DNA of 64,000 bases from Microcaldota archaeon (GTDB lineage: Archaea; Micrarchaeota; Micrarchaeia; Anstonellales; Bilamarchaeaceae), in the NCBI GenBank assembly GCA_016932815.1, contig JAFGCC010000020.1, positions 1-64,000 of the forward strand, given 5' to 3'. Positions within the stretch are counted from its first letter, which is position 1, and each line of letters opens with the position of its first letter. A program made the position numbers and the translations under genes. The notes under the pieces were generated by a model. That model did not search any database, was not told where the DNA came from, and saw only the letters and a list, made by a program, of their open reading frames with translations. This document shows, in pieces, positions 37,723 through 42,895 of this stretch.

Positions 37723-37828
37723 GGGCCCGTAGCGCAGCCTGGACAGCGCGGCTGCCTTCTAAGCAGTAGGCCGTGGGTTCAAAACATTTTTTGGAAATCC
37801 AGGAAATGTGAAAATCCCACCGGGCCCG
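37723..37828 (+). tRNA. tRNA-Arg(UCU) with a 31-nt intron in the T loop
   Basis: The acceptor arms GGGCCCG and CGGGCCC pair perfectly. The D stem is GCGC/GCGC and the anticodon arm is GCTGC-CTTCTAA-GCAGT (anticodon TCT, Arg). The T stem halves GTGGG and CCCAC are separated by TTCAAAACATTTT...GTGAAAAT instead of a 7-nt loop. Removing 31 nt (about 37784-37814; the exact edges are ambiguous by up to 3 nt because of flanking A runs) restores a TTCAAAT loop. The insert folds as ACATTT...AAATGT with an inner TGGA/TCCA, a bulge-helix-bulge-like shape for the archaeal splicing endonuclease. A TTTTAATT box lies near 37689-37697. Confidence 0.9.
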
Positions 37829-37853: not shown

Positions 37854-38099
37854 ATGGGAAAAGTAGAGGAAATCATTGAGCTAATGACTGCGGTTATAGA
37901 GGATTCGTCTGTGCCAAAGAACATAAGGAAGGCTTTGAGCGACGCCAAGGAGCGCCTTAGGAGCGATGATGAACTTACCGTGAAAGTGAGTGCCGCCATC
38001 TATTCTCTTGAGTCCGTTGCAGAGGACGTCAATATGCCCCCTCATGCTAGGATGCAGATATGGAGCATAATGAGCGAACTAGAATCCCTCAAGGAGTAG
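37854..38099 (+). CDS. UPF0147 family protein
   Basis: This 81-residue protein is all helical and matches UPF0147 (IIELMTAVIEDSSVPKNIRKALSDAKERL...VSAAIYSLESVAEDVNMPPHARMQIWSIMSELE). Function is unknown; the family is archaeal. The start at 37854 has GGAGGTG about 9 nt upstream; the track start (TTG 37836) overlaps that site. It sits directly before the DP1 gene, whose ATG is 2 nt after this stop, so it is translated with PolD, as in other archaea. Confidence 0.9.
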   Translation: MGKVEEIIELMTAVIEDSSVPKNIRKALSDAKERLRSDDELTVKVSAAIYSLESVAEDVNMPPHARMQIWSIMSELESLKE

Positions 38100-39550: not shown

Positions 39551-42500
39551 ATGGATTATTTTGACGACCTCAAAGTTGGCCTTGATGCGGTCTACTCCCT
39601 TGCGCAGGAGGCACGCTCAAAGGGCCTAGACCCCAAAGAGGAAGTCGAAATACCCATTGCAAAAGACGTTGCGGCGCGCGTAGAGGGGCTAGTGGGCCCC
39701 AGGGGAATAGCATCCGTAATCCGGGATTTGGAGCAGGGGGGCATGTCCCGCCCGGAAATCGCATTCAACGTGGCGGAAAAACTGGCTTCGGGGGACATAA
39801 TACAAGGAGACCGCAGGACGCTAATAGAGCAGGCGATAAGGACAAGTGTCGGCATACTCACCGAAGGGGTGCTCGTAGCCCCCACAGAGGGAATTGCGGA
39901 CGTTAAAATCTGCGAGAACCCCGATGGGAGCGAATATGTAGCCGTACTTTTTGCAGGCCCAATTAGGAGCGCGGGGGGAACGGTTGCCGCCCTCAGCGTA
40001 GCCCTTGCCGACCATGCAAGGAAGCGCGCGGGCGTTGCGGATTTTAGGCCCACGGACACCGAGATTTCGCGCTACGTTGAGGAAGTGAACGTTTATGAGA
40101 ACCGCTGCGTGCACCTCCAGTACAAGCCCCCGGATGAGCACGTTGCCCACATAGTGCGCAACTGCCCAGTCTGCATAGACGGGGACCCCACAGAAGAGGT
40201 GGAAGTGTCCGTGCACAGGGACCTTGAGCGCATACCAAGCAACAGGATAAGGGGGGGCGTGCCGCTTGTAATCTGCGAAGGTATTGCGGCAAAGGCCCCC
40301 AAAGTGCTAAAATTCACCCGCAAGTTCGGGCTGGAGTGGGAATGGCTCTCCGAAGTAATCAAGGTCAAGAAGAAAGCGGACAAGGTTGAGATAAAGCAGG
40401 ATTTTACCTACCTTGAAGGGCTGGTTGCCGGAAGGCCGGTATTCTCCTACCCCATGGGCAAGGGGGGATTCAGGCTCCGCTACGGCCGCAGCCGCACAAA
40501 CGGGATAATGGGCCGCAACGCCCATCCCGCCACAATGGTGCTGCTGGACTCCTTTATCGCAAACGGCACCCACGTGAAAGTGGAGCGCCCGGGAAAAGGC
40601 GCAATCATAACCGCGTGCGATTCCATTGAGCCCCCGGTAGTAAAACTGAACGATGGCTCGGTCGTGAAGCTGCGCACAAGCGAGGATGCAGACGACCTAA
40701 AAGATGAAGTGGAGGAAATCCTCTTCCTAGGCGACATGCTAATAACCTACGGGGATTTCTCCAAGTCCAACCATCCCATGATGCCAGGAGGCTACTGCCA
40801 TGAATGGTGGGTGCAGGAAGCCGGGGAAAAAGGGGTTTTGGAAACCCCGCAAAACGCAAAGGAGGCATTTGAGCTCTCAAGGAAATCCGGAATCCCCCTC
40901 CATCCGGATTACACCTACAATTGGAACGACATATCCTCATCCGAACTATCCTCGCTTGCATCGCTGCTCTTTAGGGGAGAATTAAAGATGGATGCCGGGG
41001 AAATAACCGGGATGGAGCTCCCCGCGGATTCTGCAGAGGCAAAGAGGGCTCTTGAGAAGCTGCTAGTTGAGCACAAGGTTTTGCCGCAGAGGTGCATACT
41101 CCTTGGTGCGGATGAAACCGTTGCGCTCCTCTCTTCAGTGGGAATGCTAAAAGGGAGGGAAGTGGTTTCTGCGGGAAATATCTCCAAGGATTCCCCGGCG
41201 CTTGAAAACGTCTGCGCCCTATCCGGGATAACAATACGCGACAAGGCGCCAACATACATAGGGGCGAGGATGGGCAGGCCCGAGAAGGCAAAAGAGCGCA
41301 TGATGGAGGGAAAGCCCCATGTGCTCTTCCCCACCGCTTCGCCCAAGGACCGCAGCCTCACTAAAAGGTACAAGAGCCTAAAAGCGCGCGACAAGGAGCG
41401 CACGATAAACGTGGAGATTGCACGCTACCGCTGTGAAGGGTGCGGCGCGCCCACAATCTACCCGCGCTGCCATTCCTGCGGCGCGCACGCAAAGCCGGAG
41501 AGAATCTGCCCCAAGTGCAACGAAGTCACAATCCACAAGGAGCACTGCGGCGTGCCTTCCCTATTCTACGACCGCCGCCCAATCCCGTTGGTTGAGCTCT
41601 ACGAAAAAGCCAAGTCCGCAATGGATTATGCCCCCACGGAAGTAAAGGGGGTAAAGGGGCTAGTTAGCGAGGGCAAGATACCTGAGCTGCTAGAAAAAGG
41701 GTTCTTCCGCGCAAAGAACGAGGTTTACGTGTTCCGCGACGGAACCTGCCGCTTCGACGCAACGGATGCGCCAATTACCCACTTTAGGATTTCGGAAATC
41801 GGGCAGACCCCGGAAGGCATAAGGAAGCTCGGCTACGCAACCGACCACCTGGGCAAGCCGATAGAGCATGGCGCGCAGGTAGTGCCCCTGATGTGCCAGG
41901 ACATAATCGTCTCCTCGCATTGCCTAAACTACATGATGAGGGTTGCCGCATTCATAGACGACCTGCTCGTGAACGTTTATGGGATGCCCCCCTACTACTC
42001 CCTAAAAACCCCGGAGGAGCTCCTTGGGCACCTAATCGTGGGATTGTCCCCGCACACTTCCGGAGGGGTGCTTGGCAGGATAATAGGCTACTGCGATGCC
42101 AACGTTGGGTATGCGCACCCGTATTTCCATACTGCAAAACGCCGTAATTGCGACGGCGATGAGGATTGCATAATACTCCTTGCAGACTGCCTCATAAACT
42201 TCTCGCGCTCCTATTTGTCCGAGCGCCGCGGGGGGACGATGGACGCTCCCCTCACCCTCACTCCGCAGCTAAACCCCAGCGAGGTGGACGATGAAGTCCA
42301 TTGCATGGAGGTAATAGAAAAGTACCCCCTGGAATTCTACCGCGCCTGCGAAAAAAACGTTTACCCCGGCGAAATCAAGCTAAAGACCGTGCAGGATTTG
42401 CTAGGAAAAGACGAGCAGTACATGGACCTCCATTTTACCCACGACACCTCCACAATCAACGATGGGCCCATGCGCACGCGATACGTAACCCTGGGTTCAA

Positions 42501-42895
42501 TCCCGGAAAAAATAGAAGCGGAATTCGCATTGCACAAGAAGCTGCGCGCAGTGGACGCAAAGGATGCGGCAATGCGCCTGATTCTCAGCCACTTCATCCC
42601 GGACTTATATGGAAACCTGCGCTCATATTCAAGGCAGACTTTCAGGTGCGTAACCTGCAACACGATTTACCGCAGGACTCCCTTGTGCGGAAAATGCACC
42701 CGCTGCGGGGGCAAGCTCACCCTCACAATACACAAGGGGGGAATAATGAAATACCTGGAAATCTCCAAGAGGCTCGTTGAAGAATACGGGCTCCCCAACT
42801 ACATGGCGCAGAGGCTCCTGCTCCTAGAAGAGGAAATATCAAGCATATTTGAAGACGAGAAGGTAAAGCAGACCGGCCTCTCGGATTTCATGTAG
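39551..42895 (+). CDS. polC: DNA polymerase D large subunit DP2
   Basis: This 1114-residue catalytic subunit lacks the intein found in many homologues. Visible parts are the N-terminal domain (IPIAKDVAARVEGLVGPRG) and AGPIRSAGGTVAALS near 137-150. The first zinc module is CEGCG...CHSCG...CPKC near 625-660, and the catalytic Asp region NCDGDEDCIILLADCLINFSRSYL is near 867-890. A C-terminal zinc module CVTC...CGKCTRCGGK follows near 1035-1060. The final QTGLSDFM is a PCNA-interacting (PIP) box. The operon is UPF0147-DP1-DP2. Confidence 0.97.
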   Translation: MDYFDDLKVGLDAVYSLAQEARSKGLDPKEEVEIPIAKDVAARVEGLVGPRGIASVIRDLEQGGMSRPEIAFNVAEKLASGDIIQGDRRTLIEQAIRTSVGILTEGVLVAPTEGIADVKICENPDGSEYVAVLFAGPIRSAGGTVAALSVALADHARKRAGVADFRPTDTEISRYVEEVNVYENRCVHLQYKPPDEHVAHIVRNCPVCIDGDPTEEVEVSVHRDLERIPSNRIRGGVPLVICEGIAAKAPKVLKFTRKFGLEWEWLSEVIKVKKKADKVEIKQDFTYLEGLVAGRPVFSYPMGKGGFRLRYGRSRTNGIMGRNAHPATMVLLDSFIANGTHVKVERPGKGAIITACDSIEPPVVKLNDGSVVKLRTSEDADDLKDEVEEILFLGDMLITYGDFSKSNHPMMPGGYCHEWWVQEAGEKGVLETPQNAKEAFELSRKSGIPLHPDYTYNWNDISSSELSSLASLLFRGELKMDAGEITGMELPADSAEAKRALEKLLVEHKVLPQRCILLGADETVALLSSVGMLKGREVVSAGNISKDSPALENVCALSGITIRDKAPTYIGARMGRPEKAKERMMEGKPHVLFPTASPKDRSLTKRYKSLKARDKERTINVEIARYRCEGCGAPTIYPRCHSCGAHAKPERICPKCNEVTIHKEHCGVPSLFYDRRPIPLVELYEKAKSAMDYAPTEVKGVKGLVSEGKIPELLEKGFFRAKNEVYVFRDGTCRFDATDAPITHFRISEIGQTPEGIRKLGYATDHLGKPIEHGAQVVPLMCQDIIVSSHCLNYMMRVAAFIDDLLVNVYGMPPYYSLKTPEELLGHLIVGLSPHTSGGVLGRIIGYCDANVGYAHPYFHTAKRRNCDGDEDCIILLADCLINFSRSYLSERRGGTMDAPLTLTPQLNPSEVDDEVHCMEVIEKYPLEFYRACEKNVYPGEIKLKTVQDLLGKDEQYMDLHFTHDTSTINDGPMRTRYVTLGSIPEKIEAEFALHKKLRAVDAKDAAMRLILSHFIPDLYGNLRSYSRQTFRCVTCNTIYRRTPLCGKCTRCGGKLTLTIHKGGIMKYLEISKRLVEEYGLPNYMAQRLLLLEEEISSIFEDEKVKQTGLSDFM

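Follow-up and report, generated by a model that had tools for sequence, protein, structure and literature searches.

Does a tRNA gene whose T loop is broken up by 31 nt still provide the cell with a tRNA? The question is raised by a locus in the window, which is the whole 64,000-nt stretch of DNA that was analyzed and which derives from a Micrarchaeota metagenome-assembled genome (MAG; 1.25 Mb on 25 contigs, 91.5% complete). At 37723-37828 on the + strand a complete tRNA-Arg(UCU) gene is found, in which the T loop is interrupted by 31 nt at position 59/60; the halves of the T stem, GTGGG (37773-37777) and CCCAC (37816-37820), are spaced 38 nt apart instead of the normal 7. The initial annotation had taken the insert for an intron within the T loop, and this reading stands: the arms, the T-stem halves and the spacing are all present, and so is the hairpin it described within the insert. 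Its claim that removal of 31 nt restores the loop TTCAAAT holds as well, as the in silico deletion of 37784-37814 restores a complete cloverleaf of 75 nt, which is typed as tRNA-Arg(tct) by ARAGORN, a call obtained only after the removal. On the unspliced locus ARAGORN called no tRNA and the Rfam tRNA model gave only a truncated match (37723-37781, 31.0 bits), in keeping with the earlier warning that gene finders may miss or truncate the gene; with general gene finders of this kind an essential tRNA is here missed or cut short. Scans for sigma-70 promoters and terminators gave no match, and such matches are not expected in an archaeon.

We estimate at around 0.94 the probability that this gene provides the cell with its tRNA-Arg(UCU) and that the interruption at 59/60 is an archaeal intron removed by protein enzymes. 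The insert is a real and almost certainly functional, spliced non-canonical tRNA intron and not the mark of a pseudogene. Gene anatomy and conservation were observed directly, and both enzymes are encoded; that the exons are cut and joined is what we infer from these observations. The locus and its surroundings comprise the following features.

37723-37783, + strand: 5' exon with acceptor 5' strand, D arm, anticodon arm, T stem 5' strand and T-loop bases 54-59 (UUCAAA); from the sequence and the Rfam match
37758-37760, + strand: anticodon TCT, reading AGA/AGG; ARAGORN types the spliced gene as Arg(tct)
37778-37781, + strand: UUCA, 5' half of the central helix of the bulge-helix-bulge (BHB) and T-loop bases 54-57; from orthologue comparison and covariation
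37782-37784, + strand: 5' bulge AA^A, with the 5' splice site predicted between 37783 and 37784 by the BHB cutting rule
37784-37814, + strand: 31-nt intron at 59/60 (ACATTTTTTGGAAATCCAGGAAATGTGAAAA); site shared by five orthologues of the same genus
37785-37808, + strand: intron hairpin CAUUUUUUGG-AAAU-CCAGGAAAUG, the 10-bp flanking helix of the BHB; from folding and the shuffle test
37809-37812, + strand: UGAA, 3' half of the BHB central helix; from orthologue comparison and covariation
37813-37815, + strand: 3' bulge AA^U, with the 3' splice site predicted between 37814 and 37815 by the BHB cutting rule
37815-37828, + strand: 3' exon with U60, T stem 3' strand CCCAC, acceptor 3' strand CGGGCCC and discriminator G, CCA not being encoded; from the sequence
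37854-38099, + strand: UPF0147 protein (Pfam PF03685), which opens the conserved neighbourhood (tRNA-Arg, UPF0147, PolD DP1, DP2) used for orthology; the order matches that at locus L109
38102-39544, + strand: DNA polymerase D small-subunit-like protein (OB fold and calcineurin-like phosphoesterase); from domain search
39551-42895, + strand: DNA polymerase D large subunit DP2; from domain search

The junction has the form of a full strict BHB, with two 3-nt bulges and a 4-bp central helix UUCA:UGAA, which had been overlooked in the initial annotation. From the T stem GUGGG:CCCAC the motif runs through the 3' bulge AAU, the central helix and the 5' bulge AAA to the helix CAUUUUUUGG:CCAGGAAAUG, closed by the loop AAAU. 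In a BHB each 3-nt bulge is cut after its second base, and this rule leaves a mature T loop of precisely UUCAAAU, which places the intron at 59/60. When the 31-nt insert was shuffled 10^6 times, a single shuffle gave the motif flanked by a helix of 10 bp or more, against 50 when 6 bp or more were required and 488 when 4 bp or more were required. In the minimum-energy fold calculated with RNAfold a 6x6 internal loop replaces the 4-bp helix (-20.0 versus -17.6 kcal/mol for the BHB, a gap of 2.4). Considering the fact that RNAfold likewise draws no strict BHB for the anticodon-loop introns of the Trp and Tyr tRNAs of the same genome, it is not a good judge of the motif here. As the motif is strict, its shape does not demand an endonuclease for relaxed motifs, and only its position is non-canonical.

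Within the genus the intron occurs at the identical site in all five other genomes. The exons of the six genomes are 91-100% identical and the introns only 36-86%, and although the introns diverge in sequence and range from 31 to 76 nt in length, the BHB pairing is kept. The orthologues carry non-A bases at the intron end, which fixes the boundary at 59/60. In one genome (G003) two pairs of the T stem are altered on both sides across the intron, from GTGGG:CCCAC to ACGGG:CCCGT. When 14 T-loop introns (11 of Arg UCU, two of Arg CCU and one of Lys UUU) were trimmed to the motif before alignment, so that the proposed motif dictated the register, 97.6% of the T-stem, central-helix and flanking-helix cells paired, and the covariation score was 0.537, against 0.163 +/- 0.027 for shuffles and at most 0.130 for slid controls. 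The Arg(UCU) set was gathered without assuming YGAA; all four central pairs were present in 10 of its 11 members and three in the remaining one. The longest of the orthologous introns, 76 nt in G004 (L090), contains two extra strong hairpins inside the conserved frame. The tRNA-Arg(CCU) gene has a 59/60 T-loop intron of its own in two of the species, of 32 nt in G001 (L093) and 39 nt in G003 (L096), and is without one in the species of the window (L017).

The genome yielded 45 tRNA-like matches, nearly all of which could be typed. The arginine set consists of GCG, CCG, UCG and CCU next to the present UCU; the UCG gene, which has an anticodon-loop intron, was identified by eye and is labelled SeC by ARAGORN. 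A second tRNA-Arg(UCU) was not found among the covariance-model matches or by pattern search in this 91.5%-complete genome, where another complete copy had been named beforehand as grounds for regarding the present one as a pseudogene. A whole-genome pattern search with three mismatches returned the present gene and Arg(CCU) only, while a seven-base anticodon-loop pattern was far too short to be informative. AGA codons, which normally need a UCU anticodon, are present in the neighbouring genes. The interpretation as a tRNA pseudogene, disrupted by chance or by insertion of a mobile element and never spliced, would agree with the blank ARAGORN result and the truncated Rfam match, and with the fact that splicing is deduced here from sequence. 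Given stems that are perfectly paired in six species, a T stem that covaries across the insert, a conserved BHB at a site identical in all five congeners and the failure to find another Arg(UCU) copy, it is very improbable. A tRNA-Lys(UUU) was likewise not found in the genome by covariance model or pattern search, and its gene may be located in sequence that the assembly lacks, or may be broken up more extensively. Just past the window a weak tRNA match of 21 bits (G000:C9:67266-67331, L221) is read by ARAGORN as a gene of 162 nt with a long insert; it looks like a tRNA-Ala(UGC) with an anticodon-loop intron.

Both enzymes that splicing would require are encoded in the genome. A 383-aa endonuclease aligns end to end with the epsilon2 enzyme of ARMAN-2 (4fz2; E 9.5e-127), residues 10-383 matching 11-387 of the 4fz2 chain, and it has the layout that defines the epsilon2 type, alpha-N, alpha and beta-C in one chain of about 390 aa. 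According to the alignment the catalytic residues Tyr236, His251 and Lys282 are conserved, as are Tyr160 and Lys161 of the ARMAN-specific loop and the bulge-clamping Arg275 and Trp384 (for the roles of these residues in the ARMAN enzyme see PMC12397907); the segments FRIY, WVHSKH, SVKKTF and GTYK are kept. The three-unit endonuclease that had been predicted for a DPANN archaeon is thus borne out. As the enzyme is of the broad-specificity epsilon2 type, an endonuclease unable to cut relaxed motifs, which the initial annotation would have taken as the sign of a pseudogene, was not found. An RtcB ligase is present as well (E 4.6e-172). In the precursor, the T-loop UUCA and the UGAA at the intron's 3' end would form the central helix of the strict BHB, with the T stem on one side and the intron hairpin on the other; the epsilon2 enzyme would then cut each bulge after its second base and RtcB would join the exons into the normal T arm GUGGG-UUCAAAU-CCCAC. 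Upstream of the epsilon2 gene, at a distance of around 0.5 kb, a second, EndA-like protein of 188 aa (PF01974) is encoded (L056:865-1431, G000:C16). In all 14 homologues compared from Micrarchaeota genomes (also L224-L236) the catalytic His is missing and an Arg is aligned close by; the Tyr is mostly kept and a single homologue lacks the Lys. The protein may serve the epsilon2 enzyme as a partner subunit without catalytic activity.

Outside the genus the locus takes several forms. In another genus of the family the orthologue (L109, on the same contig as G034) lies in the same neighbourhood order as the window gene, upstream of UPF0147, PolD DP1 and DP2, and has an anticodon-loop intron of the 37/38 type and no T-loop intron. 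In the more distant Micrarchaeota L115, L118 and L134 the gene is similarly found upstream of DP2 and its T loop holds an intron, which measures 27, 27 and 15 nt, respectively, whereas both introns are present in that of G015 and several relatives have an intronless tRNA-Arg(UCU). The hairpin within the insert is very stable and conserved in the genus, and one could therefore imagine that the mature tRNA keeps it, the lengthened T arm then serving a structural or regulatory purpose. However, the T loop is required for the contacts with the D loop and for the identity of T54, Psi55 and A58, UUCA:UGAA and the bulges are kept in introns of varying sequence and length (31-76 nt), a dedicated endonuclease is encoded and the gene is intronless in other genera, which makes retention very improbable. 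An assembly artefact or contamination, which might be suspected as the window comes from a MAG, can practically be dismissed since five separate genomes of the genus carry the intron in diverged form, four of them in the same neighbourhood.

The intron at 59/60 of this tRNA-Arg(UCU) thus has known counterparts: the site is among the known non-canonical positions of archaeal tRNA introns, which are reported to be especially common in Crenarchaeota and Nanoarchaeota (PMC4090602), and 673 non-canonical introns were counted in 217 archaeal genomes with tRNAscan-SE 2.0 (PMC8450103). It resembles the known 59/60 introns in its T-loop site, its BHB-type junction and its presumed splicing by proteins, and is set apart by its host, a genus of Micrarchaeota, by the tRNA concerned, Arg(UCU), and by a BHB that is strict instead of relaxed. 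With the canonical 37/38 introns, which lie in the anticodon loop, it shares the motif and presumably the enzymes, but its own place is the T loop. For ARMAN-1 and -2, tRNAs with multiple introns and the cutting of non-canonical introns at various positions by epsilon2 have been described (Fujishima et al. 2011, as summarized in PMC4033280). The phylum and the three-unit enzyme (4fz2, 9w2k; PMC12397907) are the same and the catalytic and ARMAN-specific-loop residues are conserved, whereas the genus is different and the ARMAN substrates described in the surveyed literature are the pre-tRNAs Cys GCA and Ile UAU. In permuted tRNAs of Thermofilum pendens and Cyanidioschyzon merolae the junction is likewise in the T loop, at 59/60 (PMC3218864). 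A permuted or split tRNA was rejected for the present locus, as the halves lie at one locus in the normal, unpermuted order, 5' then 3', 31 nt apart. As 59/60 introns and epsilon2 enzymes are both already documented, the present gene is a further example. No description of T-loop introns in Micrarchaeota was found in the searched literature, the primary papers Fujishima 2011 and Hirata 2012 lying outside that search. The gene gives a DPANN phylum with an epsilon2 endonuclease a clear example of T-loop tRNA introns that can be compared across species, and the six-species set, with its diverged introns and strict BHB, constitutes a clean series of in vitro substrates for a structurally solved enzyme.

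A T-loop BHB pattern that presupposes YGAA, and whose matches can thus not show the conservation of YGAA, had matches in 32 of the 84 genomes of the order. The T stem was fully paired in 27 of 35 candidates fetched from outside the genus, and 22 of these also had a 7-bp acceptor match upstream, for which the random rate is 6%. Spliced candidates were typed by ARAGORN as Arg, Gly, Asp, Lys and Ser isoacceptors. On the basis of the survey matches and the several isoacceptors typed, T-loop introns are widespread in the order. More tentatively, 59/60 could be a second preferred intron site in the order, gained repeatedly in different tRNAs: the near-invariant UUCR of the T loop already supplies half of the BHB helix, and any insert ending in YGAA plus two bases would then be spliceable. 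The variety of isoacceptors, the introns of 15-19 nt and the one locus that has its intron at 59/60 or in the anticodon loop depending on the genus are in line with this proposal, which we consider possible though somewhat doubtful. The alternation between anticodon-loop and T-loop intron at one orthologous locus in any case bears on the gain and loss of tRNA introns. Larger inserts were also encountered. The tRNA-Arg(UCU) of G027 (L166) has an anticodon-loop intron and a long T-loop insertion, its 3' exon not being found within 260 nt, and those of G077 and G058 (L148 and L149, respectively) have large anticodon-loop inserts, within which a stretch of some 40 nt or more is directly repeated. 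At the other extreme are very short T-loop introns of 15-18 nt (L134:7686-7775; L193, L195, L198-L200 and L213), near the smallest insert that is still able to form a BHB.
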